In this document: in pieces, positions 5,487-26,024 of the stretch
Position numbering within the stretch: the first letter of the stretch is position 1
How the letters are laid out: every line of letters begins with the position of its first letter
Source: Streptomyces sp. TLI_105
GTDB lineage: Bacteria; Actinomycetota; Actinomycetes; Streptomycetales; Streptomycetaceae
DNA: 64,000 nt
Reading direction: 5' to 3'
Assembly (NCBI RefSeq): GCF_900105415.1
Contig: NZ_FNSM01000001.1
Location: 248,001 to 312,000 of the forward strand
Program-made: the position numbers and the translations under genes
The notes under the pieces: generated by a model
The model's database searches: none
What the model saw: only the letters and a program-made list of their open reading frames with translations
Told to the model about the DNA's origin: nothing

Positions 5487-5978
5487 CTACGATCCAGAAG
5501 TGTCGTCGCAGGGGGTCTCGACGAACTTCTTCGCGATCTCCGCCTTCCAGTGCGCGCCCACCGCATCTGCCGTCTCGCTCGCCGGCACGGCCCTCACGAA
5601 TCTCGTGAGCCACGTGCCGTCCTCCGGCCCGAGCACCGAAACCTCGTACCGGCTGCCCGCCTGGAGCTTCTCCGATGACGCCTCGGGCAGGGCGATCTCC
5701 GCTTCGTCCGGCAGCGACCCCTTGAACACGGCCTCCGTGCGCACTTTGAACACCTGGAGGCCGGCGCCCTCGCCCTTCGAGACGAACCGGCCGCGCTCCA
5801 CGACGCTCACCAGGGCCAGATTCTGGGCCCGTGCAGCCTCTGCGGCGTCGGACGTCGTTGCCGCGCAGAGCGACTCGGCGTGCGCCACGTCGTCGCCTTG
5901 CTGGACGTACACGAAGCCGCCGACCCCCGCAGCAGCGAGTACACCGAGGCCGACGGCCCCGAGCATGATGATCTTCAT
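5487..5978 (-). CDS. Secreted NTR/TIMP-like domain protein, coupled to a metalloprotease
   Basis: 163 residues. MKIIMLGAVGLGVLAAAGVG is an uncleaved anchor or signal peptide. The body has a single early Cys after the export segment (ESLCAATT), then a beta-rich pattern: ALVSVVERGRF, LQVFKVRTEAVFKGSLPDE, LQAGSRYEVSVLG, a late Cys (ETPCDD). The order 'val-rich strand, strand leading to V-x-KG-x-LP, AG-x-RY' is how bacterial NTR/TIMP-type OB folds look, but this assignment is by eye only. The ATG overlaps the stop of the upstream metalloprotease (ATGA), so both are made from one mRNA. A role as inhibitor, chaperone or partner of that protease is an inference from the pairing. Confidence 0.7.
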   Translation of the reverse strand: MKIIMLGAVGLGVLAAAGVGGFVYVQQGDDVAHAESLCAATTSDAAEAARAQNLALVSVVERGRFVSKGEGAGLQVFKVRTEAVFKGSLPDEAEIALPEASSEKLQAGSRYEVSVLGPEDGTWLTRFVRAVPASETADAVGAHWKAEIAKKFVETPCDDTSGS

Positions 5979-6541
5979 CAGCCCCACAACTTCCTGTAGT
6001 TCGCCTTGTCGATGTCCGGAATCCAGGTGATCTCGTAACCTGCGGAAGGCGCCACCTTCCACATCAGCGAGATCACCGTGTCCGCCTTGTGGCACAGGCC
6101 CAGCGCGTGCCCCAGCTCATGCAGCGCGACGTACCGCAGCAGCTCCTTGGACGCGCCTCGGAGCTTCTGCTTGTTGAACACGATGTAGTCGGTCGCACCG
6201 ATCGACCCATGCCGCTCGTACCGGCCCAAGGGGTCCTTCGGGCCGGTGCCCAGGTTGCCGTCCTTGAATTCGAGGTCGTTCGAGGTGATCGCGGAGTCCG
6301 CGACGATCTTGATCTTCGATCCGCTGTACTGCCACTTCGAAATCGCGTATTTGCGGGCGTCGTCATAGCCGGTGTTGTCGGTCCAGCGGATCTCCCCGTC
6401 GTCGACCGCGGACTTCCCACGGGACTCGGTCTCGCCGCCCACGCATCGAGCGGGGTCCGCGGCGTACGCCGGCACCGGCGGAGCCACGAGCGCCAGGCAC
6501 GCTGCCGCAGAGACGAGCAGGGGTAACTGTCGCGTGTTCAC
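5978..6541 (-). CDS. Secreted metzincin-type zinc metalloprotease
   Basis: 187 residues. A signal peptide of about 27 residues ends AYA. The zinc site HELGHALGLCH at 141-151 is the full metzincin consensus (HExxHxxGxxH), and SLMW about ten residues later is a plausible Met-turn. The upstream helix ARKYAISKW matches the first helix of matrixin-type catalytic domains. It is close to minimal for such a domain and lacks a propeptide or C-terminal domain. Predicted extracellular endopeptidase; substrates unknown. Its stop overlaps the start of the NTR-like gene, giving a two-gene operon. Divergent from the 7-kb operon. Confidence 0.85.
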   Translation of the reverse strand: MNTRQLPLLVSAAACLALVAPPVPAYAADPARCVGGETESRGKSAVDDGEIRWTDNTGYDDARKYAISKWQYSGSKIKIVADSAITSNDLEFKDGNLGTGPKDPLGRYERHGSIGATDYIVFNKQKLRGASKELLRYVALHELGHALGLCHKADTVISLMWKVAPSAGYEITWIPDIDKANYRKLWG

Positions 6542-7049
6542 GGTGCGTAGCGTAACGGTAACTGTACGCCCTTCGGTCTACTCTCCAGCGTTCTGACGGC
6601 GACAGCCGTGCTCGACGTACGCGCGCGAGGTGACGGCGGAGGCGGCACGGGGGCGGTCGGGCTCTGACGCCGCTGCTGGGCTTGCCCCTCGAAGTGCAGG
6701 GCAGGGACATGCCGGGATTCAGGGACGCCGACACTCCCGCCCGTCCCCCTTCCCGACCCCGACGCGTCAGCGCGTGGAGCCGCGCCCTGGAAGCCCCTGC
6801 TTTGCCGACATGGGGCTGCCGTCTCCTGCGAGGCCGAACTCCTTTGCAGGCTACTCGCCTTGGGTGTCGGCGTTTCGGCCATACCCGGCTTTCGCAAGGA
6901 CCCCCGTCCCGCACGGATCGATGCACACCGCACGAACGAGCTTTCGCCTGGTGCCGGGGTTCGAATGCCGTCCGAAACACGTGTGTTCGAGACGCAGGCC
7001 GACGTCGTTGAGCCATCCGACACCCCCGCTCGATCCATCGGAGACCGTG
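6542..7049. other. 508-bp divergent region upstream of the Nudix/kinase operon
   Basis: Lies between the metalloprotease gene and the 52-residue peptide gene. It must contain the promoters for both directions but no clear -10/-35 pair stands out. A TTCGAAT motif near 6957 looks like a tRNA T-loop but has no matching stems. Frames here are open only because of GC bias. Confidence 0.4.
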
Positions 7050-7208
7050 ATGTCCCCTCTCCCCACTCTTCTTGCCCAGGCCGATCGGTCCGGGCACGGA
7101 TTCTCCACGGCCACGGCCACGGCCACGACTTCGGCCATGGCCCCAGCCCCGCTCCTGGCCGACGCGTCCCCTCGCGCAGCACACCCGGATGCGAGGTGGG
7201 ACGCATGA
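7050..7208 (+). CDS. Candidate precursor or leader peptide heading the operon
   Basis: 52 residues from an ATG at 7050 with CGGAGA eight bases upstream. The stop overlaps the ABC transporter start (ATGA), so the two are translationally coupled. The middle is an alternating run, FSTATATATTSAMAP, encoded by near-perfect CCACGG repeats, and the tail is PDARWDA. Ser and Thr make up a large share of residues 19-29, which suits a modified core peptide. The presence of an exporter, kinase-fold proteins and a PIMT-like methyltransferase downstream is consistent with a RiPP precursor. Alternatives: a regulatory leader peptide, or a non-functional open frame. No homologue is known to me. Confidence 0.5.
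   Translation: MSPLPTLLAQADRSGHGFSTATATATTSAMAPAPLLADASPRAAHPDARWDA
7105..7127. repeat. CCACGG hexamer repeat inside the peptide gene
   Basis: Three exact CCACGG units and a fourth near-unit. In the peptide's frame they encode the alternating Thr-Ala run; copy-number change would lengthen or shorten the run in two-residue steps without a frameshift. Confidence 0.75.
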
Positions 7209-9223
7209 CGGGCAACGGTGACCCGCTGGCAGCCGCCGCGGAGAGCACGTCGGAATCCGAGCAGCTGCTGTTCGGTGGTGAGCTCACCTACGACTACGGG
7301 TGGGGAGCCCACGACGGTGCTTGGCTGAAGCTGGGGCTGCGCGCGATGGCCGGCTCGCTGCCGAGGCAGGTATCGGTGGCTGTCCGGCTGGCCCGCGAGG
7401 CCGACTCGCGGGCGTTCACCACGGTCGCCGTGAGCGAGATCGCCCGCGGCATCACTCAGGCCGTCTCCCTGATCGCGGTCAACACCCTGCTCGTCGAACT
7501 GCTCGCCGCGGGCGACATGACCGGTCGGCTGCGTGCGGCGCTGCCGTCGCTCGCGCTGGTGGCCGTCCTCGCGGTGATCGGCTCGGCGTGCCGGTCGGCC
7601 TCGTCCGCCGCGACGGGAATCCTGGAGCCGAAGGCCCAGCGGGTGGCGACCGAGCGGTATCTGGGCCTGGTGGCGCGGGTGGAACTGGAGGCGATCGAGG
7701 ACGACGCCTTCCACAAGCTGATGGACTCCGCCCAGTGGGGTGCGGACTCGGCGAGGCGGATGGTCGGCTACTGCACCGCCGTGGTCACCTCCGCCATCTC
7801 GCTGATCGCCGCCGCCGGTGTGCTCACCGTTCTGCACCCCGTCCTCCTGCCGCTCCTGGTTCTCATGGCACTGCCGAGCGCGTGGGGCTCGCTGTCCATG
7901 GCCCGGCACCGGTACATCAGCTGGCACCGCTTCGTGCAGCACGTGCGGGCCGCCAAGCTGATCAGCCAGCTCCTGATCAACCCGCAGGCCGCGGCCGAGA
8001 TCCGCGTCCACGACGCGGCCCCGTTCCTGCTCACGCACTTCCGTCAGATGGCAGAGACCAGCGAGCGGGAGCAGACCCGGCTCGCGCGGACCGGCGCCCG
8101 TACCAACCTGGTCGCGGACTCGACGCGCGGCATCGCGACCGTCGCCACCTACGGCGCTCTCGGGCTGCTGCTGTGGCACGGGCAGATGGGCCTGGCCGTC
8201 GCGGGCACGGCGGTGCTGGCGATCCGCTCCGGCGCGGCGAGCATCACGGACCTCGTCCTGCGCGTCACCGACGTCCAGGAGGAAGCCCTGTTCGTCGCCG
8301 ATCTGGAGAAGCTGTGCGAGGAGGCCGCCCGGCGTTCCATCCCCGTCGGCGGGGTCGACGTGCCCGAGGGCGTGCACGAGATCCGGTTCGAGAAAGTGAC
8401 CTTCACCTATCCCGGGGCCGACAAGCCGTCCCTGCACGAGGTCGACCTCGTCATCCCCCGGGGCAGGACCGTCGCCCTGGTCGGGAGGAACGGCTCGGGC
8501 AAGTCGACCCTCGTCCGTCTGTTGAGCGGATCCCGGCTTCCCGACTCCGGCCACGTCCTGTGGGGCGGCGTGAGCACGGCCGAAGCGGACCGCGCACAGG
8601 TCTTCGACCGGGTCGCGATGGTCGCCCAGGACTTCTTCCGCTGGCCCTTCACGGCGCGGGTGAACATCGGAATCGGCCGCAGCAGCGCCGCGATGGACGA
8701 CCAGAGCGTCGAGGCCGCAGCGGTCTACGCGGGTGCCGATGAGGTCGTCAAGGGTCTCCCCCGCGGCCTGGACAGCTTGCTCGTACGCGGTTACAAGGGC
8801 GGCCAGGAGATCTCCGGCGGACAGTGGCAGAAGATCGGCCTTGCCCGTGCCCGGCACCGCGACGGTGCGGTCCTGATCGTGGACGAGCCGACCAGCGCGC
8901 TCGATCCCGCTGCCGAGCAGCGGGTCTTCGACCAGATCCATCAGCTGGCCGGCTCGGGCCAGACCACAGTCCTGATCACCCACCGCCTCCACAGTGTCCG
9001 GACCGCGGACCTCATCTACGTGCTCGACGAGGGCAGGGTCGTCGAGCACGGCGCCTTCGCGGAACTCATGGACCCGGCCACCGGGGCCGGCGTGTTCCGG
9101 GAGATGTACGAACTGCAGGCGCGCCAGTTCCTCAACCCTTCGCTGCCGGCGCAGGCCGTCCCGGCGGAAGCGGCGCCGGGCAAACCGGCCGACGCCGTTG
9201 GCGAGGGGCAGGTGCTGTCATGA
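7205..9223 (+). CDS. ABC exporter (fused transmembrane and ATPase domains)
   Basis: 672 residues from the ATG at 7205, chosen for its GAGGTGGG ribosome binding site and its ATGA overlap with the peptide gene. Residues ~25-330 form an ABC exporter membrane domain with several hydrophobic helices. The ATPase follows: Walker A GRNGSGKST at ~426, signature ISGGQ at ~536, Walker B VLIVDEPTSALD at ~556-567, and ITHR H-loop at ~590. No N-terminal C39 peptidase is present, so it does not itself cleave a double-Gly leader. As a homodimer it would export the product, or the peptide, of this operon. The stop overlaps the next gene (ATGA). Confidence 0.92.
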   Translation: MTGNGDPLAAAAESTSESEQLLFGGELTYDYGWGAHDGAWLKLGLRAMAGSLPRQVSVAVRLAREADSRAFTTVAVSEIARGITQAVSLIAVNTLLVELLAAGDMTGRLRAALPSLALVAVLAVIGSACRSASSAATGILEPKAQRVATERYLGLVARVELEAIEDDAFHKLMDSAQWGADSARRMVGYCTAVVTSAISLIAAAGVLTVLHPVLLPLLVLMALPSAWGSLSMARHRYISWHRFVQHVRAAKLISQLLINPQAAAEIRVHDAAPFLLTHFRQMAETSEREQTRLARTGARTNLVADSTRGIATVATYGALGLLLWHGQMGLAVAGTAVLAIRSGAASITDLVLRVTDVQEEALFVADLEKLCEEAARRSIPVGGVDVPEGVHEIRFEKVTFTYPGADKPSLHEVDLVIPRGRTVALVGRNGSGKSTLVRLLSGSRLPDSGHVLWGGVSTAEADRAQVFDRVAMVAQDFFRWPFTARVNIGIGRSSAAMDDQSVEAAAVYAGADEVVKGLPRGLDSLLVRGYKGGQEISGGQWQKIGLARARHRDGAVLIVDEPTSALDPAAEQRVFDQIHQLAGSGQTTVLITHRLHSVRTADLIYVLDEGRVVEHGAFAELMDPATGAGVFREMYELQARQFLNPSLPAQAVPAEAAPGKPADAVGEGQVLS

Positions 9224-10266
9224 CACCGTCCGTCTTCGAGGCGCGGAGCTCGCCGGTGACGCTTCTGCTCACCGGCGGCTTCGGCATCGTCCCCGCCTCG
9301 ATCGAGCCGGGCCCGGCAGGAACCGCGACGCACAACTACATCGCCACCGAGGCCGACGGCTCTCAGTGGTTCGTCAAGACTTACCCGGTCGGCACCGCGC
9401 TGGGACCGGTCGACGCCGCCGCCCGGCTCGGCGAGTACGCGCGCCTGTGCCGGGTGCCGGTCGCCGCCGCCCGCCGCACGACGGACCAGGGCCGGCTCGT
9501 CGCCGCGCACCAGGGTCTGGTCATGACGGTGACCCGGTACGTCCCGGACGCGGTGACAGCGGACGGGCGGCTGACCGGGCGCCGTTGGGAGGCCGTCGGA
9601 GAGGCCGTCGGCTGTCTGCACCGGGGCTTCGCCCGGCACGAGTACGGGCCGCCCCGTCTCGGCCCGAGGGACAAGGCGATCGACCTCGCCCGGACCCTCG
9701 CCAGGCTGGAGCATCTCGTCTCCCGCTATGAGGCCACGCCGCCGGCCAGCGCGTTCGAGCGGTGGGCAGTCGAGACGGCCCGCGAGAAGCTGGCGCGGGC
9801 ACCGGAGGTCGAAGGGCTTCTGGGCAGGGTCCCTCGCACCATGGTGTCGCAACTGGTCCATGGCGATCTGTCCGGTCCGAACGTCCTGCTGCGCGGGGAC
9901 GCCGTGGCGGCGGTGATCGACTTCCACTCACCGATCCGCCGGGGTGCCGTCTGGGAGCTGGGCCGCCTCGCACTCGACCCGCGCACCGTCCTGACCCAGC
10001 CGGACTGGCCCGAAGGACTGGGCCGGCTGGCCGCCGTCTACCACTCCCTCCACCCGGCCGTAGGGGTGGAGGAACTGGCGAGCGTAGTACGGGTGACCGC
10101 CGTCGCCCTGGCGATGTCGGTGTACCCGCTCAACTCGGTCCTCGACGGCCTGGGTCCGGTCACTGCCTCGCTGGAGCGGTACGCCCGCGACCGCCACCAG
10201 GCCGCCGCCGTGCTGCGCGACCGGCTCGACGAGGCCGAGGAGGTCCTGCGTGACCACCTCGCCTGA
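9220..10266 (+). CDS. APH-fold phosphotransferase
   Basis: 348 residues; ATG overlaps the ABC transporter stop. Aminoglycoside phosphotransferase/kinase fold (PF01636): N-lobe lysine in WFVKTYP (~52), catalytic loop HGDLSGPNVLL at ~214, and metal-binding Asp in VIDFHS at ~233. The family phosphorylates small molecules such as aminoglycosides, choline or homoserine, and some members act on peptides in RiPP pathways. Nothing in the sequence fixes the substrate. It is the first of three APH-type domains in this operon. Confidence 0.88.
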   Translation: MTPSVFEARSSPVTLLLTGGFGIVPASIEPGPAGTATHNYIATEADGSQWFVKTYPVGTALGPVDAAARLGEYARLCRVPVAAARRTTDQGRLVAAHQGLVMTVTRYVPDAVTADGRLTGRRWEAVGEAVGCLHRGFARHEYGPPRLGPRDKAIDLARTLARLEHLVSRYEATPPASAFERWAVETAREKLARAPEVEGLLGRVPRTMVSQLVHGDLSGPNVLLRGDAVAAVIDFHSPIRRGAVWELGRLALDPRTVLTQPDWPEGLGRLAAVYHSLHPAVGVEELASVVRVTAVALAMSVYPLNSVLDGLGPVTASLERYARDRHQAAAVLRDRLDEAEEVLRDHLA

Positions 10267-10999
10267 GCCGCCCCCGTCCCTCCGTCCCGCGGCACTGGCC
10301 GCCGACCGTCCTTCCGCCGTCCGTTTCCCCAGTCCGCGAGGTCCTGACATGTCCCCCGCCCTCTCCCACATCCGCGCCCTGGTCGCCTTCCACCTCAGCG
10401 AAGGCGTGATGCTCGCGTGGGTGCGGCCCGAGAAGTTCCCGTACATGACGAGGCCGCCGTCGAGCAGGGTGCTGTGGGAGCGGCACGCTGCCGAACACCC
10501 CGCGCCCGCCGAGGGACCAACGGCGGCCGGCGGGACCACGCCGGCGAGGGCACCGTCCGGGACCGTGCCGAACGTGGTCGGTGTGCACCTCTACCTGGAG
10601 CGGGACGGCCAGGTTCTGTTGGGTCTGCGGCATCCGGACTCGGCGTACGCCGGCGGGTCCTGGCACGTGCTGGCGGGCCACTGCGAGGCGGAGTCCGCTA
10701 CCGCGTGCCTCGTGAGGGAGGCGTACGAGGAGGCGGGACTGGTGATCGACCCTGCCGACGTCGAGCTCGTCCACACGGTGCACATGGTGGACCGGCCCGA
10801 CGACCCGCCGCGTATCCAACTCTTCTTCCGTGCGCGCCGCTGGGAGGGCATCCCGAAGCTCCGGGAACCGGACAAGTGCGTCGCCTGGCAGTGGTGGAGC
10901 GCGAAGGACCTGCCCGAGCCGACCGTCCCCTACACCCGTGCGGCGATCCAGGGCATCCGGACGGGGCGTACCTACACGGAGCTGGGGTGGGGGCGATGA
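10250..10999 (+). CDS. Nudix hydrolase with N-terminal extension
   Basis: Up to 249 residues from a GTG at 10250 that has AGGAGG eight bases upstream and overlaps the kinase gene; an ATG at 10349 (217 residues, also with GAGG) is the alternative. The Nudix domain occupies roughly residues 105-240. Its box is AGHCEAESATACLVREAYEE followed by AGL: the REx2EE core is intact but the first loop is G-x4-E, one residue shorter than the canonical G-x5-E. The same short loop and the motif EPDKC recur in the Nudix half of the fusion protein starting at 13292, so the two are close paralogues. Hydrolysis of a nucleoside-diphosphate-linked compound is expected. Confidence 0.85.
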   Translation: MTTSPEPPPSLRPAALAADRPSAVRFPSPRGPDMSPALSHIRALVAFHLSEGVMLAWVRPEKFPYMTRPPSSRVLWERHAAEHPAPAEGPTAAGGTTPARAPSGTVPNVVGVHLYLERDGQVLLGLRHPDSAYAGGSWHVLAGHCEAESATACLVREAYEEAGLVIDPADVELVHTVHMVDRPDDPPRIQLFFRARRWEGIPKLREPDKCVAWQWWSAKDLPEPTVPYTRAAIQGIRTGRTYTELGWGR

Positions 11000-11775
11000 C
11001 CGGATTCGACGCGGTGGGCGCCGCATATGCCGCCCACTCCGACAGCGCGCGGGGCCGGCTCCGCCACGACCTGGTCGAGCGTCGGCTTCTCACCGAACTC
11101 CCGGTCCGTCCCGCCGCGGTTCTCGATGTCGGCTGCGGGAACGGCGAGATGGCCCTGCGCCTCGCCGCCGCCGGTCACCAGGTGACCGGCGCCGACCCGT
11201 CCGCCCGGATGCTGGCCGCCGCAGCCGACCGCCTCGCGGCCCGCCCCGAACTCGCCGACCGCGTCCGGCTGGTCGACGCCGGCCTCGAGTCCCTCCCCTT
11301 CGACGGGGAGCGGTTCGACGCGGTCTGCTGCCACGGCGTGCTGATGTACCTGGACGAGCCCAGTGAGGCGGTCGCCCGCCTGGCCGGACTCGTCGCGCCG
11401 GGCGGACTGCTGAGCATCCTCGCCAAGAACCGCCGGTCCATCGGCGTGCGCGAGGCACTGGGCGGCGACTACGCGACCGCGCGTCGGCTCATCGAGTCCG
11501 GAGCGGACAGAAGTGTCGGCAATCTCGGTCGGGAAACCCGCGGCGACACCGCGGAAGCCCTCGACCGGCTCGCGGCCGACCACGGGCTGACGCCACTGCC
11601 CTGGCAGGAGGTCCGGATCTTCCACGACCACCTCGACGGCACCTGGGCGCCGGAACCGATCGCGTACGCAGCGGCGCTGGAGCTGGAGTGGGCCGCGTCC
11701 TGGCGGGGCCCGTACCGGGACATGAGCCACCTCGTGCACACCCTGGCCCGCCGACCGGAGCGGAGTCGATCATGA
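10996..11775 (+). CDS. Class I SAM-dependent methyltransferase
   Basis: 259 residues, ATG overlapping the Nudix stop (ATGA). Rossmann-fold methyltransferase: motif I VLDVGCGNGEM at ~42, acidic motif II (VTGADPSARML), and motif IV/post-I region FDAVCCHGVLMYLDEP. The C-terminal third (RIFHDHLDG, then WAASWRGPYRDMSHLVH) resembles CmoM/SmtA-type methyltransferases. Substrate is unknown; in context it would be a tailoring enzyme. The stop overlaps an ATG at 11772. Confidence 0.87.
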   Translation: MTGFDAVGAAYAAHSDSARGRLRHDLVERRLLTELPVRPAAVLDVGCGNGEMALRLAAAGHQVTGADPSARMLAAAADRLAARPELADRVRLVDAGLESLPFDGERFDAVCCHGVLMYLDEPSEAVARLAGLVAPGGLLSILAKNRRSIGVREALGGDYATARRLIESGADRSVGNLGRETRGDTAEALDRLAADHGLTPLPWQEVRIFHDHLDGTWAPEPIAYAAALELEWAASWRGPYRDMSHLVHTLARRPERSRS

Positions 11776-13295
11776 CGCCCATCCGCACCGCTTTCTCGGC
11801 GCACGCGGCGCTGCTCGTCGGAACCGCGCCCCGCCTCGTCCCGGCCGGCCTTCCGGGGGCCCTCCCGTCTGCCGTCTCAGCACCATGCCCGCGACCGCTT
11901 GCTCACCCACGAAGGACGGCCGGCATGTCCCTTGATCTCCAGACCGCGACGAGCAGCCTGCGCGCCGCCATGGTCGACCGTCTCACCTCCGCAGACGTCC
12001 TGACCGATCCCCTGTTGCGCGACGCCCTGCTCCACGTGCGCCGCGAGGTGCTTCTGCCCCACGCGTACGTGCGGGTCAGCGGTCCGGGCGCCGATCCGAT
12101 CGAGTGGCGTCTCCTCGACGGTTCGCATCCGGACGACTGTCAGGAGTGGCTCGACCTGATCCACGGCGACGAGTCGATCCTCCTGCAACGCGACGGCGAG
12201 CAGTTGGACGCGCTGCCGCGCGGGCCGGTGACCGGCGGGCACATGACCTCGATGTCCACGTACTCCCCAGTCACCGTCGAAGTCCTTCAGGCCCTCCGGC
12301 TGGAACCCGGGCAGCGCTACCTTGAACTCGGCCCGGGCCCGGGGGTCTCTCTCGCTCTCGCCGCCGCCGTCACCGGCCCCCGCCTCGCCGTCGGAGTCGA
12401 GCGTGACGGCCACATGGCCGCCTTCGCCCGGCGCAATCTCGACCGGATCGGTCTGGGGGCCGCCGTCGTCGAGGGCGATGCCCTCGACGGGCACCCGGCA
12501 GGGGGGACGTTCGACCGGATCCACTCCGGCATCGGGGTCCCCGGCGTCCCGCAGGCGTGGGTGGAGCAGCTCGCGCCGGGTGGGCGGCTGCTGACGACGC
12601 TGGCGACCCGCACACCGAGCTGGCCCGGCCGGCTCGGTGTCACCCGCACCAGGACGGGCCTGGTCGAGGCGACCTTGCGGGGCGGGCCGCGCGGGTACCG
12701 GCCCATGCTCGGCCACCGGTGGCTCAACGCGATCGACCACCGTGCCCGCATCGAGGCGGATCCCGGCACACCGCGGGCTACCCGGCTCGCGCCGCCGCCG
12801 GACGAGGCGTACGGCTTCTGGTTGGCCGCCGCCTACCACGTGGGCGCGGTGGTAAGGGACTTCCAGGCGGAGACCATGACCCTCGTCGCCCCCGAGGAAG
12901 ACTCATGGGCCGTGGCCGGCCCCGGCGACGGCACCGTCCGCGTCCACGGGCCGCGTGACATCTGGGCCGAGCTCGAAGAGCTCCACACCCGCTGGGAACG
13001 GGCCGGCCGGCCGGAGGCATACCGGGTGGAGCTCGGCGACGGCACCGGTCCCCAGCACGTCACCTCCGGCACGGGGTCGAAAGCCCTCGCCTGGACGCTG
13101 CCGCCACTGCCCGCCGTCCCCCGTCAGGTGCCCCGTCCGGGGACCCCCGCCGATGCGGTACGGGACGTCGGCCTGCCGGTCCTGGAGGACGAAGCCCGAC
13201 AGCTGCCGGAGCAGCACAGCGAGGACGGCGGCGGGGGCGTCGAGGACCCTGCGTGCACGGTGCCGTGGGCCCGGCGACCGGGGGACGGCACGTGA
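11772..13295 (+). CDS. PIMT-like methyltransferase with long C-terminal region
   Basis: 507 residues if it starts at the ATGA overlap at 11772, or 456 from an ATG at 11925 that has GAAGGACGG at good spacing; the first 51 residues are low complexity, so 11925 may be right. From 11925, a REVLLPHAYVR segment and HMTSMSTYSPVTVEVLQALR precede SAM motif I LELGPGPGVSLA and the motif GDALDG. This order matches protein-L-isoaspartate methyltransferases and their RiPP-cluster relatives. The ~200 residues after the Rossmann domain are also found in FxLD-type methyltransferases as far as I recall. Such enzymes methylate Asp side chains to make succinimide or isoAsp. Its stop overlaps the next gene (GTGA). 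Confidence 0.8.
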   Translation: MTPIRTAFSAHAALLVGTAPRLVPAGLPGALPSAVSAPCPRPLAHPRRTAGMSLDLQTATSSLRAAMVDRLTSADVLTDPLLRDALLHVRREVLLPHAYVRVSGPGADPIEWRLLDGSHPDDCQEWLDLIHGDESILLQRDGEQLDALPRGPVTGGHMTSMSTYSPVTVEVLQALRLEPGQRYLELGPGPGVSLALAAAVTGPRLAVGVERDGHMAAFARRNLDRIGLGAAVVEGDALDGHPAGGTFDRIHSGIGVPGVPQAWVEQLAPGGRLLTTLATRTPSWPGRLGVTRTRTGLVEATLRGGPRGYRPMLGHRWLNAIDHRARIEADPGTPRATRLAPPPDEAYGFWLAAAYHVGAVVRDFQAETMTLVAPEEDSWAVAGPGDGTVRVHGPRDIWAELEELHTRWERAGRPEAYRVELGDGTGPQHVTSGTGSKALAWTLPPLPAVPRQVPRPGTPADAVRDVGLPVLEDEARQLPEQHSEDGGGGVEDPACTVPWARRPGDGT

Positions 13296-14701
13296 GCGGC
13301 GTGCGGCACACCGTGCCGGTGGACGTGCACCTGATCGCCGTCCGCGACGGGGAGCAGGGTCCGGAGGTGCTGTTGTCCCGGCGGGCCGGGGACGTGTACG
13401 CATCCGGTCTGTGGCACGCGCCGTCGGGTCACGTGGAGCGGGAGACCGTCGTGGACGCCGTCGTACGCGAGACGCTGGAGGAGACCGGCCTCGTCGTGGA
13501 TCCGGGGGATGTCCGTGCGGCCGTGATCGTGCACCATCGGCCGCCGGGCGGAGGGCGGGAGCGGGTCGGGTTCTTCTTCGAGGTCCGCCGCTGGCAGGGC
13601 GTCCCGCGGGTCGTCGAGCCGGACAAGTGTGACGCGATGGAGTGGTTCCCGCTCACGGCGCTTCCGGAGCCGATGGTCGCCTACTGCCGGGCCGGGCTCG
13701 ACGCCTACCGGGCCGGCGCACCGGTCGCTCTGCACTTCCATGCCCCCGACGACCCGATCGCCCACGACCCGTACGTCGACCGTCTCCGCCTCCTCCACGG
13801 GCCGGGGGCTGCGGATCCTGGACCGGAGCCGGGCGTGCGGGAGTTCGCCGAGCGCGCCGTCGGCCGCATCACCGCGTGGACGGATGTGTCCTGGGCCCGG
13901 GAGAACAGCCGCGTGTGGCGCGTGCGCGGGGCGGCGGGCGGCTCGTGGTTCGTGAAGGTCCACCAGAACGAGAAGTTCCACCGCCGCGAGACGACCGCGT
14001 TGCGTGGCTGGGTTCCCGGCCTGGGCGGCGCCGGGCCCCGCCTCGTGGCCGCAGACCCGGGCCTCCGGTCGGTCGTGGTGACCGCTGTCGAGGGCCGGTC
14101 CCTGCACGGCATGGTGCTGACCGGAGCCGAGGAGGGCGCGGTGTTCGAGGCGATCGGCGCGCTCGCGGCCCGCATCCACGCGAGCCCCCTCCCCGCGACG
14201 GCGTCCGGTACCGCGCCCGTGGGACCGTACGACCGAATGGAGCGGCATCTGGACGCGGCGCGGCCGCTGCTCGAACCAGGGGACGAGGAGTGCGTCCGCT
14301 CGGCCGTCGCCGCTGCGCAGGAGTTCGGGCCGCTCACGCCGGTGGTGACGCACGGCGACCTGCAGCTGCGCAATCTCCTGCTCGGCGCCGACGGCGCGGT
14401 GCGCTTCATCGACGTCGAGCGCAGTGAACTCCAGCCCCGGGTAAGGGACTTCGTCCGCATCCTCGACCACTTCGACGGCCGGGAGGACCTGGTCACGGCG
14501 TTCCTCGCCGGCTACGGCCGCCCACTGACCGGTGCGGAGGAGGCACATCTGGTCGCGAGCGTCGCCCTGGACTCGGTCTCCGGCGTCGCTTTCGGGACGC
14601 GGGCCGGGGACCCGGAGCTCGTCGAGCGCGGCCGCCGCGCCCTCGCCCGTCTGCGTACCGGCAGCGCATGGCCCTTCTTCCGTCAGCAAGGAGCCCCGTG
14701 A
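13292..14701 (+). CDS. Nudix hydrolase fused to APH-fold kinase
   Basis: 469 residues from a GTG at 13292 behind GGGGGA. Residues ~7-150 are a Nudix domain with box SGHVERETVVDAVVRETLEE, again with a G-x4-E loop, and EPDKCDAMEWF downstream. Residues ~180-460 are an APH kinase: FVKVHQNE lysine strand at ~220, HGDLQLRNLLL catalytic loop at ~354, FIDVERS metal site at ~372. Fusion of a phosphohydrolase and a kinase in one chain implies they act on the same or sequential substrates. The gene ends with tandem stops TGATGA. Confidence 0.88.
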   Translation: MSGVRHTVPVDVHLIAVRDGEQGPEVLLSRRAGDVYASGLWHAPSGHVERETVVDAVVRETLEETGLVVDPGDVRAAVIVHHRPPGGGRERVGFFFEVRRWQGVPRVVEPDKCDAMEWFPLTALPEPMVAYCRAGLDAYRAGAPVALHFHAPDDPIAHDPYVDRLRLLHGPGAADPGPEPGVREFAERAVGRITAWTDVSWARENSRVWRVRGAAGGSWFVKVHQNEKFHRRETTALRGWVPGLGGAGPRLVAADPGLRSVVVTAVEGRSLHGMVLTGAEEGAVFEAIGALAARIHASPLPATASGTAPVGPYDRMERHLDAARPLLEPGDEECVRSAVAAAQEFGPLTPVVTHGDLQLRNLLLGADGAVRFIDVERSELQPRVRDFVRILDHFDGREDLVTAFLAGYGRPLTGAEEAHLVASVALDSVSGVAFGTRAGDPELVERGRRALARLRTGSAWPFFRQQGAP

Positions 14702-14704
14702 TGA

Positions 14705-14940
14705 ATCCCGACGTGCGGCGGTCACACCGCGCCGTTCACCCGGCGCGACAACGACCGGGCCGCCGACCGGTTCGAGGCGCTGATCCGGCCGCCCGCCGAC
14801 GTGCACGTGACCACGAGGAACGTCCCTCCCGACGGCGCCACCCAGCAGGTGCTCGCCGCAGCGGCGCCGATCGCGGCGGTCGGCCGTGACACTCCCCTGC
14901 CCACGACCGTTGAGCAGGCCGACACGAATCGAGGAACCGA
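14705..14940 (+). other. Open frame with coding character but no start (possible degraded small gene)
   Basis: Directly after the TGATGA stops, the same frame continues without stops. It reads FTRRDNDRAADRFEALIRPP and then DVHVTTRNVPPDG, with natural protein composition, unlike the Arg-rich alternative frame opened by the ATG at 14701. No ATG or GTG precedes the coding-like part, so the start may lie in another frame before a frameshift. It could be a decayed gene or the relic of a small peptide gene between the two kinase genes. No family recognised. Confidence 0.3.
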
Positions 14941-14942
14941 CC

Positions 14943-15791
14943 ATGAGCACACCGGTGTTCACGGCGCCGGCCGCTGCCGAGGACGTTGCGCGGATGCGCC
15001 GCGCGTTCACCGCCGCGGCCCGCGGCCTGCAGGTCACCCCGACCGGCCCGGAGGTGTGGGGGTGGCGGGGCCGCACGCTCGGGCGCCGCGCCGGCACGAG
15101 CTGGCTGCGCGTCGTCTGCGTGCCGTCCGGGAAGGCAGGCGGACGGCTGTGGGAGGGCACTGCCCTCGCGGACGCGGCGGTCCCCCGGGCGGTGCCGCGC
15201 CCCCGGCTGCGTAACCTCCTGGACTGGACGGGTGGACCGTACGCCTACCGGGCCGAGCTCACCGAACTCGTCACCACACCGGCCGTCGTCGTCGGCAGTC
15301 CCGTGCTCGACCGCGATCCCGGGCTGCCGGACGCCTGGTGGCGAGAGCTGCGTGCCGCGTCGGCCGTGCTCGCCACGGTGCCCACCGATCGTGAGGCCGT
15401 GCGGCAGTCCTGGATCGACCGCACCCTCCGTACCTTCCTCGGCATCGACCCGCCGCGGATCAGCCACTGCACCACCGGACACGGCGACTTCCACTGGGCC
15501 AACGTCGCCGCACCGGCCCTCGTCGTCTTCGACTGGGAGTCATGGGGGCGGATGCCGGTGGGCTTCGATCAAGGGCTCCTCCACGCCTACGCCCTGACCG
15601 TGCCCGCCGTCGCGGCCCGCCTCCGGCGCGAGTTCGCCGACGTGCTCGACACGCCCGCCGGCCGAGCCGGGGAGCTCGTCGCCCTCGGCCAGCTCCTCCA
15701 GGCCTGCGGCCGAGGCGTCCATCCGCACCTGGCCCCGCTGATCGCCCAGCACGCCGAACACCTCACCGGTGTCCCGGTCCCCCGCCGCTGA
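14943..15791 (+). CDS. APH-fold phosphotransferase
   Basis: 282 residues, ATG at 14943 with GAGGAA upstream. Catalytic loop GHGDFHWANV at ~178 and metal site VVFDWESWG at ~194 mark the APH/choline-kinase fold. The N-lobe is short and its ATP-binding lysine is not obvious, so activity is less certain than for the first kinase. It is the third kinase-type domain of the operon. Confidence 0.82.
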   Translation: MSTPVFTAPAAAEDVARMRRAFTAAARGLQVTPTGPEVWGWRGRTLGRRAGTSWLRVVCVPSGKAGGRLWEGTALADAAVPRAVPRPRLRNLLDWTGGPYAYRAELTELVTTPAVVVGSPVLDRDPGLPDAWWRELRAASAVLATVPTDREAVRQSWIDRTLRTFLGIDPPRISHCTTGHGDFHWANVAAPALVVFDWESWGRMPVGFDQGLLHAYALTVPAVAARLRREFADVLDTPAGRAGELVALGQLLQACGRGVHPHLAPLIAQHAEHLTGVPVPRR

Positions 15792-15824
15792 CCCCTTTTC
15801 GTTCCTCGTCCCCGGAGGAAGCCC

Positions 15825-15959
15825 GTGCCCCCTCCACGCGTCGACGTCGTACTGCTCACCGCCGTCGGCCGGCCGCCGATCATCCGACCCGACCTCGGAA
15901 AGGACCACCGTGGCGAATCCGGGAATGCCGAGCCTCATGGGGGTCTTCGCCCATCCTGA
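15825..15959 (+). CDS. Possible 44-residue small ORF overlapping the PIG-L start
   Basis: A GTG at 15825 stands four bases behind a strong GGAGGAAG site and opens 44 codons that run into the PIG-L gene in another frame. The start PRVDVVLLTAVGRPP looks like a beta strand from a real protein, after which the frame becomes a shadow of PIG-L. It may be a small peptide gene, or the surviving start of a gene replaced by PIG-L. Low confidence. Confidence 0.25.
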   Translation: MPPPRVDVVLLTAVGRPPIIRPDLGKDHRGESGNAEPHGGLRPS

Positions 15960-16683
15960 CGACGAGGCTCTTCTCGCCGGCGGGGTCCTCGCCCAGCACG
16001 CCGCCGCGGGCGCCCGTACCGCTGTGGTCACCGCCACCTGGGCGCCGGACAGCCACCGGGCGCCCGAGCTCGCCGAGGCACTGGCCGTCCTCGGAGCCGG
16101 TACCCCACGTCTGCTCGGCTACGGCGACGCCCGCAACCCCGAAGCGGCTCCGGGGCAGGCCCGTCTCGTCGACGCGCCTCTCGACGAGGCCATCGGCCGT
16201 CTCGTCGCCCATCTCCGCGGCTTCAGGCCCGACATCGTCGTGACGCACGATGCGGTCGGGCAGCTGACGGGCCACCCCGACCATGTGCGGACGCACCAGA
16301 TCACCCTGCTCGCGGTCGAAGCGGCCGGCCATGCCCGCCTGCACCCTGAGGCGGGGCCGCCATGGTGGCCGGCCGCTCTGTACGCGGCCACTCACTCCGA
16401 GTCCGGTGTGGGCCTGCTCGGCCCGCTGATGGAGAGGGTGGGGAAGAGCGTGCTGACGGTTCCGGACGCGTACGTGACCACGAGCGTCGACGTCTCGCCG
16501 TGGGCCGACGTGAAGTGGCGCGCGATCCTCGCACACCGCGGCGAGGTCGCGCGCGAGCGGCCCCTGCCCGGTGTCCTCGCCCGCCTCCCCGAAGCCGACC
16601 GACACCGGATCATCCGGTCCGAGCAGTTCACCCGGCTCGGTCTCGGCCCCGCGCCGGCCGTAGCGGACCGGGTCACCGCCTGA
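15910..16683 (+). CDS. PIG-L family deacetylase
   Basis: 257 residues from GTG at 15910 behind GAAAGGA. Zinc-binding motif GVFAHPDDEALLAGG at ~12-26 and a second His pair in TGHPDHVRTHQ at ~120 are the hallmarks of the LmbE/PIG-L family (PF02585), which removes acetyl groups from N-acetylglucosamine-type amino sugars or related amides (MshB, Mca, BtrD, teicoplanin deacetylase). The enzyme suggests that an amino-sugar or acetylated amine passes through this pathway. Confidence 0.9.
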   Translation: MANPGMPSLMGVFAHPDDEALLAGGVLAQHAAAGARTAVVTATWAPDSHRAPELAEALAVLGAGTPRLLGYGDARNPEAAPGQARLVDAPLDEAIGRLVAHLRGFRPDIVVTHDAVGQLTGHPDHVRTHQITLLAVEAAGHARLHPEAGPPWWPAALYAATHSESGVGLLGPLMERVGKSVLTVPDAYVTTSVDVSPWADVKWRAILAHRGEVARERPLPGVLARLPEADRHRIIRSEQFTRLGLGPAPAVADRVTA

Positions 16684-16738
16684 CCCGCCCCCCTCACGTC
16701 CCTTCCCCCCGACACGAACTTCGCCGATCGGAGAAACT

Positions 16739-17830
16739 ATGACGACAAACACCGCTGATCAGCCGCCCTCGACGAAGATGACCGACGAGCAGTACGGGGC
16801 GTTGCGCGCGTCGGCGGCCCTGTGGGCCGGCACCTCCGTGTTGATCACCAACGAGCGGGGACAGGTCCTGGTCCAGAAGGTCGGCTACCGGCCCTTCCGC
16901 CTCCTGCCCGGCGGCGCCGTGGACAAGGGCGAGACCGCCGCCCAGGCCGCGGTCCGGGAAGTGGAAGAGGAACTCGGCGTCACCCTCACCGTCCGACGCG
17001 GCCTCGCGGTCGACTGGGTCTCCGCCGCCGCTGTCCAGGCACCTGAGGAGATGCGCTTCCCCGGCGAGATCCTGCACGTCTTCGACGGGGGCGTCTGGAG
17101 CGGGGAGCAGATCGCCGCGATCCGCCTGGCGGCGGACGAGATCCAGGCGGTCGAACTCGTCGAGCCCGCCGACCTGCCCACCCTCATGTCCCCGGGCGAC
17201 GCCCGCCGTGCCCTGTCCGCCCTCCGCGCCCGCGTCGACGACGCCGGTGTCGTCCTCCTGGAGGACGGCGTTCCGATCGCGCCGAGCGTCCTGGACCGGG
17301 CGGGCGTCCTGCGTACCGCCCGGGCACGGCACCACTTCCCCTTCCACGCCCACCCCGTCCCCGGCGATCTCGTGCTCCGGCAGGCCTGGTGCTGGGCCTT
17401 CGCCCCGGACGGCCGTGTCCTCGTGCTCCTCGAACCCGACACCGGAGCGGCCTGTCTGCCCGGCGGCACCCCGGAACCCGAGGACGGAGACGACCCCGAG
17501 GCCACGCTCGTCCGTGAAGCCCGAGAAGAGGCCGCGGCCGAACTGGCCGGCGCCGTGTATCTCGGATACCTGTCCGACCCCGACGAACCCTGCGCGCGCG
17601 TGCGCTACGCCGCGGCGCTCGCACGCGTCGGCGCGCCGCCGGTCGACCCGACCACCGGCCGCACGTACGTCCGCGTCCTGGCCACACCCGAGCAGGCGCT
17701 GGAGCTGTTCGACTGGGGCCCGGCCGCGACCGACCAGCTCGCGGCCGTCCACCGGGCCCGCGCCCTCCTTCACATCCCCCGGGCCGCCCGCCGGCCCGTC
17801 ACCGAGCTCCCCGGCCCCCACACCTGGTAG
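16739..17830 (+). CDS. Tandem Nudix protein (two Nudix domains)
   Basis: 363 residues, ATG with CGGAGAAA upstream. Domain 1 (~25-150) has a canonical Nudix box, GGAVDKGETAAQAAVREVEE followed by ELG, starting at ~58. Domain 2 (~200-330) has GGTPEPEDGD and LVREAREEAAAEL; the residue that should be the first Glu is Asp, so its activity is doubtful. Tandem Nudix proteins are unusual. This gene starts the last third of the operon, 55 bp after PIG-L. Confidence 0.87.
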   Translation: MTTNTADQPPSTKMTDEQYGALRASAALWAGTSVLITNERGQVLVQKVGYRPFRLLPGGAVDKGETAAQAAVREVEEELGVTLTVRRGLAVDWVSAAAVQAPEEMRFPGEILHVFDGGVWSGEQIAAIRLAADEIQAVELVEPADLPTLMSPGDARRALSALRARVDDAGVVLLEDGVPIAPSVLDRAGVLRTARARHHFPFHAHPVPGDLVLRQAWCWAFAPDGRVLVLLEPDTGAACLPGGTPEPEDGDDPEATLVREAREEAAAELAGAVYLGYLSDPDEPCARVRYAAALARVGAPPVDPTTGRTYVRVLATPEQALELFDWGPAATDQLAAVHRARALLHIPRAARRPVTELPGPHTW

Positions 17831-17857
17831 CCCCAGCCCGAAGAAGAGCGAGGAACC

Positions 17858-18724
17858 ATGACCAGCACTCCCGCCTCATCCCCTGTCTTCCCGAGCTCGT
17901 CCGACGAGCCCCTCGCCGTGCCCGCCTACCCCGACGCTCCGGCCCCGGTCCTCGTGAACCGCGCCGCCGACCTGTCCGAGCCGGAGGAGGTATCCGGGTC
18001 CACCCGGCCTCCGGTCGAGTTCCTCGATGCCCGCGTGCTGGTGTTCGCCGAGCAGGCGACGCCTGTCCTCTCCTCCTGGGAGGAACGTGAGGTGGACCGG
18101 CTCTGGGAGGAGACGACGGCCCGCAACCCCGCCGCGTTCGACGGCCCGCTGGTGGCCGCCCTCGGCCTCGACCGGCCCGGAGACGGAAGCCTGGTCGTGC
18201 GCTGGGCCCCGATGACGTACCGCTACCGTGCCCTCCGCCGGCTACGGCCGCCCGAGCAGGTCCCCGGGTCTGTGTTCGTCACCGTTCTCCTGCCCACCGA
18301 GAGGGGGCTCGTGGTCGGGCGCGGGTCTCCCGCCACAGCGGCGCCCGGCCGGTGGACCCTGCCGGGCGGCGCGGTCGAACCACCCTTGGCCGGCCAGGCC
18401 CTGAACACGGCAGAGCTGCGCCGGCACGCCGCCCGCGAGCTGGTCGAGGAGACCGGTGTGCGCGTCGCCGTCGAGGAGCTGCGGCTGTGGGCCCTCACCC
18501 GAGGGAGCCGGTTCGGCAGCCTCGGCTTCCACTTTCTCTGCCCGCCCGTCTCCGGGGCGCTCGTACGCCGCCTGCACGCGGACCTGTCTGTCGTGCAGAC
18601 CGGGGCCGGCACAGGGCCGGAACTCGACGAGATCGGCTTCGCACCCTCGCCGGCCGCAGCCGGTCGCCTCGGCTTGACGGCGGACTACCTGCCTCAGGTG
18701 TTCGACCGGTACTTCACCGTCTGA
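17858..18724 (+). CDS. Nudix hydrolase with N-terminal extension and expanded box
   Basis: 288 residues, ATG behind GAGCGAGGAA, 27 bp after the tandem Nudix gene. The first ~125 residues have no recognised domain. The Nudix domain follows: GGAVEPPLAGQALNTAELRR then HAARELVEETG, where about eight extra residues separate the first Gly from the REx2EE helix. LGFHFLCPP and the C-terminal DYLPQVFDRYF are typical Nudix strands and helix. It is the last recognisable gene of the operon and is followed by IS debris. Confidence 0.82.
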   Translation: MTSTPASSPVFPSSSDEPLAVPAYPDAPAPVLVNRAADLSEPEEVSGSTRPPVEFLDARVLVFAEQATPVLSSWEEREVDRLWEETTARNPAAFDGPLVAALGLDRPGDGSLVVRWAPMTYRYRALRRLRPPEQVPGSVFVTVLLPTERGLVVGRGSPATAAPGRWTLPGGAVEPPLAGQALNTAELRRHAARELVEETGVRVAVEELRLWALTRGSRFGSLGFHFLCPPVSGALVRRLHADLSVVQTGAGTGPELDEIGFAPSPAAAGRLGLTADYLPQVFDRYFTV

Positions 18725-18769
18725 CCTGGGCGACACCGTCTCCCCCGAATCTCCGCGCTCACGAAGGGA

Positions 18770-18950
18770 TGCCGTGCCGGATACCGGAGAAGCCGACGCC
18801 GGGCACCGGCGGGTGCGGACCCGGGTCGGGCACGCCTTCGCCCGCATGAAGCACTACGAGATCCTCCGCGACCGCCGTCAAGGAGGGAACGGCCGCCATC
18901 AGGCGGTCCAGACGGTCGCCCCCCTGCACAACCTCGCCCTCGCCGCATGA
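18770..18950 (+). pseudogene. C-terminal fragment of IS5-type transposase (fragment 1)
   Basis: The frame ending at 18950 reads VRTRVGHAFARMKHYEILRD, then HQAVQTVAPLHNLALAA, the C-terminus of DDE transposases of the IS5-like group. Nothing of the N-terminal half is present; the fragment begins abruptly after the Nudix gene. The last ~60 codons only. Confidence 0.75.
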
Positions 18951-19163
18951 CCAGACCGGCCACAAGCCGGGCCCCGACCTGCCCGGACGCAGCCTTCTGC
19001 AACACGCTTCAACGGCTCTCCCCCACGTAATCCTGCTGCGGCAAGATCTCGGTCGCGGCTGGTGTGATCACGGCGTCAGAACCGTTCTGGACAGCTCTCT
19101 TCACCGGGCTGAGCCCGCCTACTGCTCGACCTGTGCGCGGCACACGCTGGGATCGCCGCCTCC

Positions 19164-19514
19164 TTGCCGGCCGTACGGCTCCTGGGCCTGCCCGGCACGG
19201 CCAAGGACGGCCTCACCCTCAGCAGCCGCGGCATCGGACTGGGCCCGCCGAACAACCTCGTGGTCATGTACTGGCACGAGATCAAGGTCCTGGAACTGAC
19301 GCGGCACACCGGGGGGACAGAGCTGATCGTCCACCTCGACGTGGTGCGGCAGCTGCCCACGGGTTCCCACCACCCGACCCGGGTCCGCAGTGGCCGCGAC
19401 GGCGTCACCCGCATCCGTACGCGCAGACTCACCCCACTTGGCACCGCGCCCCGACTGCCCGACGCCGCCCACGCGTTCGCAAGGCCGCAGCGGATCCGGG
19501 TGAGTGAAGGCTGA
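19164..19514 (+). CDS. Hypothetical protein or fragment
   Basis: A 116-residue frame with TTG start and normal Streptomyces codon bias. The stretch LGPPNNLVVMYWHEIKVLEL, followed by ELIVHLDVVRQLP, looks like real protein, but no start with a ribosome binding site is evident and it lies between two transposase fragments. No family recognised; possibly a decayed gene. Confidence 0.3.
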   Translation: MPAVRLLGLPGTAKDGLTLSSRGIGLGPPNNLVVMYWHEIKVLELTRHTGGTELIVHLDVVRQLPTGSHHPTRVRSGRDGVTRIRTRRLTPLGTAPRLPDAAHAFARPQRIRVSEG

Positions 19515-19619
19515 ACGGACGGGTCCGGGCCGACCGGAGCTTCCGGGGGGGCGTCGGCAGGAGTCGAGGCATGCCGGGATGAGGGGCCGTGCGGAGCCGC
19601 CGGCTCTGCTGCCGCATCA

Positions 19620-20110
19620 CGGAGGGCCTTCCGCTGTCCGAGCCGCCCGCGTCGCCGCGTGCCCCGGCTCGCGAGGCGTTCCATCGTGTCCCGGGAACCA
19701 GTGGATCGCTCGTGTCTTCGGAGTGACGCCGACACCCGCCTGGTGGTCACGGTCGGTCGGCCGTTGCCGGGCAACTGCCATGACGCTCGGGCCTGGGCGG
19801 AACCCGGCGCCAAGGAAGCCGTCGGGAAGACGATGACCAGCGCAGACGGCGGCTATCGCGGACCGGGACTTGTGATCCCGTACCGACGGCACGGCAAGGA
19901 CGAAGAAATACCGGGCTGGAAGGCCTCCCACAGCAAGTCCCACAAGCAGGTCCGCGCCCGCGTCGAGCACGTCTTTGCCCGGATGAAGGCCTGGGAAGAT
20001 CCGGTGTGACTGCCGCCCGCGAGGCGCCGGCGGGCACCACGCGATGCATGGCATCGCCTGCCTGCACGACCTCGCCTCACCGAACAGCCCTGCCGCGCAG
20101 GGGATCGAGG
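19620..20110 (+). pseudogene. Central/C-terminal fragment of IS5-type transposase (fragment 2)
   Basis: Frame 19659-20009 reads DADTRLVVTVGRPLPGNCHD, TSADGGYRGPGLVIPYRR and HKQVRARVEHVFARMKAW, the catalytic core and C-terminal helix of an IS5-like DDE transposase. A frameshift near 19995 shifts the remaining C-terminus (HHAMHGIACLHDLA) into another frame. The N-terminal DNA-binding part is missing. Confidence 0.8.
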
Positions 20111-20317
20111 GCGAGGCACTGCGTTCCACGAAGGACGTCGTACGTCGATGGTCGATGAAGGTGGCGTTCCCACGGCTCGATGTCCGGTTTCCCTGGGCAC
20201 TGTCCGGGCGATCTTGGCTGTGGAAGGATGCTGCCGTGATCGACATTCGAAGGGGTCGCGCCGCGTAGAACGCCGGCTTCACTTCGGCGGCGGGAACATG
20301 GCTGGAAGAGCCCCTGG

Positions 20318-20667
20318 GTGCGTTATCGCGATGTTCCTGGCCTGTCGGGTGCGGCGAATGCAGCCGTCCGCGTGCTCGAGCGGGGCCGACTGGCGCCGGG
20401 TGTGGTGTCTGTCGCGCTGAGCGTATGGTCCGTACGCGTCCACGGCATCCCACGCCGGTGGAGGCGGTGGGAGGCCGAGTTCACCTGCCCGTGCTGCGGC
20501 GAGGGCTGGGGCCGCGACACGCTGCAAGAGGCTCTGTCCATGCTGCCGCCGAGGGCCGCCGACGAACTGCGGGTGCAGGTCGAGCGCCTGGACGAGGGCT
20601 CCTCAGACGAACACACCACGAACCCATGGCAGATCCGGAGTTGACATGGTGGCATCGCAGGTGGTGA
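20318..20667 (+). pseudogene. Small Zn-ribbon-like hypothetical with probable C-terminal frameshift
   Basis: From a GTG at 20318 the frame reads RYRDVPGLSGAANAAVRVL and EAEFTCPCCGEGWGRDTL; the CxxC resembles half of a zinc site. The frame ends at 20644 with an odd tail, while the overlapping frame ends at 20667 with ADPELTWWHRRW, which looks like the natural C-terminus. A single frameshift near 20590-20610 would join them. Could be a true mutation or a sequence error. Confidence 0.4.
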
Positions 20668-25965: not shown

Positions 25966-26024
25966 GAGAACCTCCCACCCGGCAGCACCGGGATACATGG
26001 ACAGAATCAGGTACAGGGCGATAC

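Follow-up and report, generated by a model that had tools for sequence, protein, structure and literature searches.

A conserved upstream element and an exporter-led operon of Nudix, kinase and methyltransferase genes recur in Streptomyces

In this study, we analyzed a 64-kb window of Streptomyces sp. TLI_105 (positions 248001-312000 of an 8.59-Mb contig; positions below are those of the window), and we found that its plus-strand gene series at 7050-18724 belongs to a gene set that recurs in other Streptomyces genomes. The series consists of a 52-amino acid open reading frame (ORF) and ten larger genes, and a conserved non-coding element of about 160 bp (6864-7023, plus strand) lies upstream of it. 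In the related loci, the element and an ABC gene recur together with Nudix, APH, methyltransferase, PIMT-like and PIG-L genes in varying combinations. Tentatively, and with rather less than even confidence, we propose that the operon modifies, trims and exports a small molecule bearing phosphate or nucleotide, and that it serves detoxification, self-protection or tailoring rather than forming a complete pathway. These roles are favored because no scaffold enzyme was recognized, the gene content varies like that of a cassette, and the exporter and the element are the most constant parts.

Recurrence of the gene set

The earlier note on this DNA, made from the sequence alone, had suggested a neighborhood search from two proteins, the Nudix-APH fusion (hereafter F, 13292-14701) and the PIMT-like methyltransferase (hereafter E, 11925-13295), and had allowed that the operon might be a chance assembly if the genes did not co-occur elsewhere. 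F was matched fully or partly in 55 of 392 Streptomyces genomes (E-value <= 1e-60), at 63 places, 45 of them longer than 1 kb, and its query coverage reached at least 80% in 19 plasmid records. E was matched in 53 of the 392 genomes (1e-30). Among the 49 stronger E places, 25 lie within 10 kb of F on the same strand, and at least nine of the other 24 follow the conserved element at a distance of a few kb (coordinates compared by eye). Both proteins were found in 28 genomes, one alone in 27 and 16, and neither in 321; this count used 49 of 60 E rows (the 11 weakest, with E-values > 1e-50, were dropped by hand) and 63 F rows, which include partial matches, and neither it nor the Fisher test takes phylogeny into account. 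Thus, the genes do recur together, patchily, in Streptomyces, and the proviso of a chance assembly falls away. Furthermore, the 8.88-Mb genome has 33 Nudix domain matches, five of which fall in a 7.9-kb stretch of the operon, and this clustering also argues against chance.

The gene content was tabulated in 54 loci selected by F (two duplicates removed) and 40 loci taken from high-scoring element hits. Since the loci were selected, the neighbor fractions, as well as the figures for 63 elements given below, describe these samples only. Across the 54 F-selected loci, the most frequent neighbors in the table were Nudix C (38 loci), ABC (33), the FxlM family (31), PIMT E (29), methyltransferase f6 (26) and PIG-L (24). 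The clusters of the relatives also include MFS, HIT, M15, GNAT-Nudix, methyltransferase (MT)-Nudix, ASCH-Nudix and MT-Nudix-PCMT families, and HIT, 3'-5' exonuclease and GNAT genes were found there. No conserved scaffold enzyme was recognized among the families common to at least four loci, some of which were named by eye or by NCBI annotation. The clusters lie on plasmids as well as, in many cases, at chromosome ends.

The closest fuller relative is L069, where the window genes A-H are interleaved with genes for MFS, LuxR-type, HIT-MT, GNAT, methyltransferase, exonuclease, T5orf172, transposase and glycosyltransferase proteins. Three such clusters (L025, L069 and L078) stand on one 1.8-Mb contig (C2 of genome G394). 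In addition, on the plasmids of S. longwoodensis (L183) and S. nojiriensis (L186), integrase gene sets directly follow the MFS gene and apparently interrupt the cluster. In the parts of the literature that were accessible, a search turned up no published description of such a cluster, and this agrees with the earlier statement that no characterized pathway with this combination was known.

Gene layout and enzymes

The enzyme and transport part of the operon comprises ten genes at 7205-18724 behind the 52-amino acid ORF, all on the plus strand, and the gene series is a real operon. The successive gaps are -4, -4, 82, -4, 149, -4, 241, 133, 55 and 27 nt, and four overlaps of 4 bases are firm (at 7205, 9220, 10996 and 13292). 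The plus-strand packing described earlier was found again, with eleven ORFs in place of twelve genes; no twelfth gene was found. A fifth overlap had also been claimed. An ATGA is present at 11772, and it would be an overlap only if E began there, which would add 51 residues. However, the closest homolog of E, P0121 (455 amino acids), covers the form that starts at 11925 at 100%, and relatives of 403-405 amino acids likewise do not support the upstream start; therefore, we do not count this overlap. The single transcription unit that had been concluded from the overlaps is not proven, since the three gaps of 133-241 nt leave room for internal promoters.

The first large gene (7205-9223) encodes an ABC half-exporter of 672 amino acids with a Walker A motif (GRNGSGKS) and a signature motif (ISGGQ). 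Its top-scoring solved relatives are ABCB-type exporters, followed by MsbA. Thus, it shares sequence relationship and motifs with drug-type ABC half-exporters, whereas it differs from them in being preceded by the conserved element, which was seen here only in Streptomyces. PADLOC gave matches to parts of models only, the best being mad3 with the ABC protein; as no complete model set was matched, identity as an anti-phage defense system was rejected.

The next genes encode an APH-type kinase (9220-10266, 348 amino acids; PF01636, 51.5 bits; HGDLSGPN), a Nudix hydrolase (10349-10999, 216 amino acids, or 249 from an alternative start at 10250; PF00293, 61 bits), a class I S-adenosylmethionine (SAM) methyltransferase (10996-11775, 259 amino acids; Methyltransf_11, 80.8 bits), E (456 amino acids) and F (469 amino acids; PF00293 and PF01636). 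They are followed by an APH-like protein (14943-15791, 282 amino acids), a PIG-L deacetylase (15925-16683, 252 amino acids; HPDDE and HPDH), which is closest to MshB, a double-Nudix protein (16739-17830, 363 amino acids; identified by Pfam and motifs) and a last Nudix protein (17858-18724, 288 amino acids; PF00293, a weak 28.1 bits). The APH-like protein had no match in Pfam, NCBIfam or the PDB sequences, so its assignment as the third APH domain relies on the motifs HGDFHWAN and FDWE. All of the catalytic motifs tested (Nudix, kinase, PIG-L, SAM and ABC) are present; REx2EE occurs in every Nudix domain of the operon, and in the last Nudix protein the box contains an insertion. The tally made earlier, namely an exporter, three APH and five Nudix domains, two methyltransferases and one PIG-L protein, was upheld by Pfam, NCBIfam and the motifs.

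Many relatives of the Nudix protein at 10349-10999 have two or three Nudix domains. In addition, Pfam confirmed MT-Nudix-PCMT, triple Nudix, GNAT-Nudix, MT-Nudix and ASCH-Nudix proteins among the relatives. Nudix is therefore a recurrent fusion partner of modifying domains, and this suggests that the Nudix domains are reusable parts of modifying enzymes.

The fusions and the overlaps also bear on another explanation, in which the cluster is a resistance or house-cleaning island whose genes each handle a different toxic or damaged compound and are linked by shared control and mobility. The enzyme classes match known types of inactivation (APH, GNAT, methyltransferase, M15 peptidase, PIG-L and exporters), the gene content varies among the loci, and the sites on plasmids and often at chromosome ends fit mobility. 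In addition, HIT hydrolases are reported, in the portion of PMC7157772 available, to give resistance to peptide-nucleotide antibiotics. However, the tight 4-base overlaps and the fused domains (Nudix-APH and MT-Nudix-PIMT) suggest one substrate class that is handled sequentially, and we consider such an island unlikely.

The conserved element

The element begins with GTGTCGGCGTTTCGGCCA and ends near GTCGTTGA...CGAC, and its internal spacing is nearly fixed according to a motif scan and alignments. The window element was matched by our model R1 with an E-value of 8.7e-28, and it is the sole match of the genome at E-value <= 1e-3. With this sequence-only model and the same threshold, the element scores in 183 of the 392 Streptomyces genomes. 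In an order-level sample, it was found in 80 of 197 genomes, all from one of six genera, where the share of the 197 taken by the other five genera is not shown.

Among 63 unique elements from the selected loci, a gene of the ABC family starts within 450 nt in 49 and within 60 nt in 28. At the remaining elements, a Nudix or fusion gene sometimes stands first; within the examined loci, no gene comes first behind the element more often than the ABC gene. Furthermore, in 12 of the 40 element-selected loci, the ABC gene is the sole representative of the tabulated families, although one of these loci (L168) is only 4.7 kb long. Among the 160 of 325 locus pairs with ABC proteins of 25-35% identity, the element is 61% identical, whereas four-fold coding sites reach 43% and shuffled letters 28%.

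We considered a structured RNA leader or riboswitch and rejected it. Rfam gave no match for a structured RNA leader in the window at 5500-20500, RNAalifold gave a covariation of -0.12 for the element and thus no support for RNA structure, and a pairwise covariation scan of the 63 element sequences, which is not phylogeny-aware, found no covarying helix. Since the latter two analyses support no RNA structure, we infer that the element is a putative promoter or operator. A sigma-70 scan of the element found nothing; for a LexA-type box and an ECF-type promoter, the element was inspected solely by eye.

Another conserved leader, distinct from the element, stands before the ABC genes of this family in L040, L042, L082 and L090-L092, as shown by alignment, and it contains CGTTCTTAGAGCACCAGT...GGAGGAC..ATG. 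L166 looks chimeric, with the 5' part of the first element and the 3' part of the second leader.

The small ORF

The 52-amino acid ORF (7050-7208) ends in an ATGA overlap with the ABC start codon. In loci such as L039, L078 and L153, the ABC gene itself starts about 28 nt past the element. In the window lineage, this start position opens an ORF of 31-57 amino acids, which overlaps the ABC start in the window and in the ABC-bearing relatives. The earlier note had asked whether a small ORF always precedes the ABC gene, and this is not the case: the ORF is absent from six clusters that keep E (L030, L039, L041, L078, L081 and L086), and the ABC gene starts there instead. The overall count of small ORFs is 28 of 62, with one duplicate locus among them and several ORFs that do no more than overlap the element; 13 of the 28 begin 27-61 nt past it.

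The G+C content of the small ORF by codon position is flat (0.69/0.71/0.75), and for most of 22 pairs the third codon position has no surplus of mismatches, with two exceptions (8/11/15 by codon position for the window and L023, and 3/14/16 for L042 and L082). The middle and the length vary between relatives, there is no conserved core, and no NCBIfam match was found at E-value <= 10. In addition, in L028, L029 and L103, the small ORF aligns with the N-terminal part of a different ABC type (54-70% identity over 40-69 residues) and then departs from it; it is the remnant of a replaced exporter gene. Such replacement behind the same element is shown in these three loci and is not counted as a rule; the small ORF of the window has no match to the N-terminus of another ABC type. 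Because of the little coding constraint, the variable middle and length and the exporter remnants, the frame seems to be kept mainly for coupling. Thus, the 52-amino acid ORF looks more like a translation relay than a product. Meanwhile, the small ORFs before the ABC gene in L040, L042, L082 and L166 share some sequence (MNPVL..HQP.GFE and RPDTRW), and this mildly favors a real peptide in those loci.

We also compared 852 small ORFs from the gaps of 31 E loci. Only three families occurred in at least four loci, and all came from the leader regions: one is the coupled leader ORF (eight loci), and the other two read the element in antisense.

The PIMT-like methyltransferase

E has a PIMT domain (PCMT match, 71 bits) and a C-terminal extension of more than 100 amino acids. 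The AlphaFold model has a mean pLDDT of 80.9, with low confidence for residues 400-456, and its best PDB match is 1DL5, the two-domain PIMT of T. maritima (TM 0.42/0.59, rmsd 10, with a different domain orientation), which spans both parts. Furthermore, WERAGRP in E represents WxxxGxP, the motif given for lasso, graspetide and imiditide enzymes in the available text of PMC13001092. The motif occurs in 28 of 31 family members from the fetched loci, and in 27 of the 31 it lies within the last 110 residues. Based on the two-domain fold, the 1DL5 match and WxxxGxP, the modeled E belongs to the type of the aspartyl O-methyltransferases (PAMT) associated with ribosomally synthesized and post-translationally modified peptides (RiPPs), which include those of pamtides/imiditides, graspimiditides and lassimiditides. 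However, E reaches 192.5 bits for TIGR04188, about half of the cut-off of 380, and 87.5 bits for TIGR04364 (FxlM), below its cut-off of 320. None of the ten operon proteins has an ATP-grasp match, no adjacent conserved small precursor with a conserved Asp was seen across the examined loci, and the companions here are Nudix, APH and exporter genes.

Relatives of about 770-790 amino acids that NCBI names fxlM, after the methyltransferase of the FxLD system, sit in homologous clusters. One scanned fxlM relative is an MT-Nudix-PCMT protein. In contrast to FxLD systems, the window operon has no FxlM, and no lanthionine genes are annotated within the examined 25-kb stretches. On the plasmid of L191 (NZ_CP117710.1, 153551-156691 of the record), the annotation places a lantibiotic dehydratase gene some 27 kb upstream of the cluster.

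These results bear on a RiPP pathway, in which E would convert Asp of a ribosomal peptide, either the product of the 52-amino acid ORF or an unseen one, to aspartimide or isoaspartate, and the kinases and the other methyltransferase would modify it further. Such a pathway could draw on the motif and fold of E, on the FxlM proteins with a second PIMT domain in relatives, on the dehydratase gene on one plasmid, and on the sequence shared by the small ORFs of four loci. In addition, Lee et al. left 3653 enzymes of the same clade unassigned, as far as the accessible part of PMC10787088 goes. However, the small ORF has no clear codon-position signal, conserved core or family match and is missing from six clusters with E, and the comparison of small ORFs recovered leader-region families only. 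We therefore regard a RiPP pathway as quite improbable. The earlier hypothesis of a RiPP-like pathway on the 52-residue peptide is thus borne out in the type of E and not in the peptide as precursor. That note had said that it would fall if homologous clusters lacked the peptide and contained a clear scaffold enzyme instead; clusters without the peptide exist, and a clear scaffold enzyme was not found in them.

Nucleoside genes near the element

On pFRL3 (L181) and in NBC_00582 (L184), a nucleoside-type gene set stands directly upstream of the element, and it includes QueD/QueE/FolE, phosphoribosyltransferase, thymidylate kinase, radical SAM, aminotransferase and PurC-like genes. The S. longwoodensis plasmid (L183) has a shorter related set with dTMP kinase, radical SAM, aminotransferase and HAD phosphatase genes. 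Elsewhere, none of 97 other sequences has three or more of nine pFRL3-type genes, and single matches were QueE in L042 and PurC in L167. This absence is a weak negative, because the element-selected loci have short upstream flanks (for 39 element loci, no more than about 3 kb was present on the upstream side). The 64-kb window has no homolog of 13 pFRL3 gene products; other types of assembly genes were not searched for. Thus, a general link to nucleoside biosynthesis was dropped.

Nevertheless, the operon could be part of a complete antibiotic pathway of nucleoside or aminosugar type, whose scaffold comes from elsewhere or from primary metabolism, is phosphorylated during assembly and is unmasked at the end. 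Nudix steps are described in the biosynthesis of tubercidin (TubG; excerpt of PMC6112128) and of puromycin and cystocin (Pur7 and CstH; excerpt of PMC11641026), and these clusters share with the operon a Nudix gene together with exporter, kinase or methyltransferase genes. The HIT, 3'-5' exonuclease and GNAT genes of the relatives and the sets upstream of the element also speak for it, and the related set on the third plasmid slightly raises its probability. However, the operon lacks enzymes for base or sugar assembly and has five Nudix domains instead of one, no conserved scaffold enzyme was recognized, and pFRL3-type sets are absent from the window and, with many short flanks, from the other sequences. 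We consider this pathway possible, on the unlikely side. The earlier hypothesis of a nucleotide- or aminosugar-linked metabolite, with the exporter giving self-protection, would suit the enzymes present and the Nudix steps described for tubercidin and puromycin-type biosynthesis.

Other features of the window

ARAGORN reported a tRNA-Ala (cgc) at 22929-23022, which overlaps an MmyB-type regulator gene on the opposite strand and is probably spurious. On the minus strand, there are genes for a small protein that has a lectin domain of the ricin-B type and, more weakly, matches the CDtoxinA family (25504-26076), an AbiEii-type nucleotidyltransferase (45155-46144) and a UvrA-like ABC ATPase (60766-63234).

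Discussion

In the mechanism that we propose, the element at 6864-7023 would drive or control an exporter-led accessory operon, and ribosomes from the 52-amino acid ORF would be delivered to the ABC start codon, the ORF itself not being a substrate. The enzymes may act on one class of small molecules carrying phosphate or nucleotide: the APH proteins would phosphorylate the molecule, the Nudix proteins would hydrolyze its phosphoanhydride or nucleotidyl forms, and the methyltransferases and PIG-L would block or unblock carboxyl and amino groups. Finally, the ABC exporter would remove the modified molecule.

Several points weigh against this proposal. For enzymes of the PIMT type with WxxxGxP, the substrates described within the available portions of PMC13001092 and PMC10787088 are peptides or proteins, which is a poor fit to a small molecule. 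The intergenic gaps of 149, 241 and 133 nt permit more than one transcript. Only 25 of the 54 F-selected loci yielded the element, partly because stretches were cut, and the E-values of the element model are rough owing to a shortened calibration. Furthermore, nucleoside-type sets adjoin the element in three plasmids only, scaffold or precursor genes beyond the fetched stretches would escape, and several neighbor families were annotated by eye or by NCBI name alone.

A wider interpretation, which we hold to be fairly unlikely, is that the loci form a modular Streptomyces system, in which the element is an expression slot for exchangeable exporters and the Nudix-module enzymes act on nucleotide conjugates. 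Aspartyl- or peptidyl-nucleotides are possible substrates, and they would tie together the activities of the HIT, GNAT, Nudix and aspartyl-methyltransferase proteins.

The gene set, whole or in part, occurs in about one seventh of the 392 sampled Streptomyces genomes and the element in nearly half, and no function was found for them. Aspartyl methyltransferases of the RiPP type appear here in a setting with no recognizable precursor. If the substrate is a nucleotide conjugate, the operon would be a lead to a new class of antibiotics or a resistance route. In addition, the conserved element is a direct handle to find and induce such operons.

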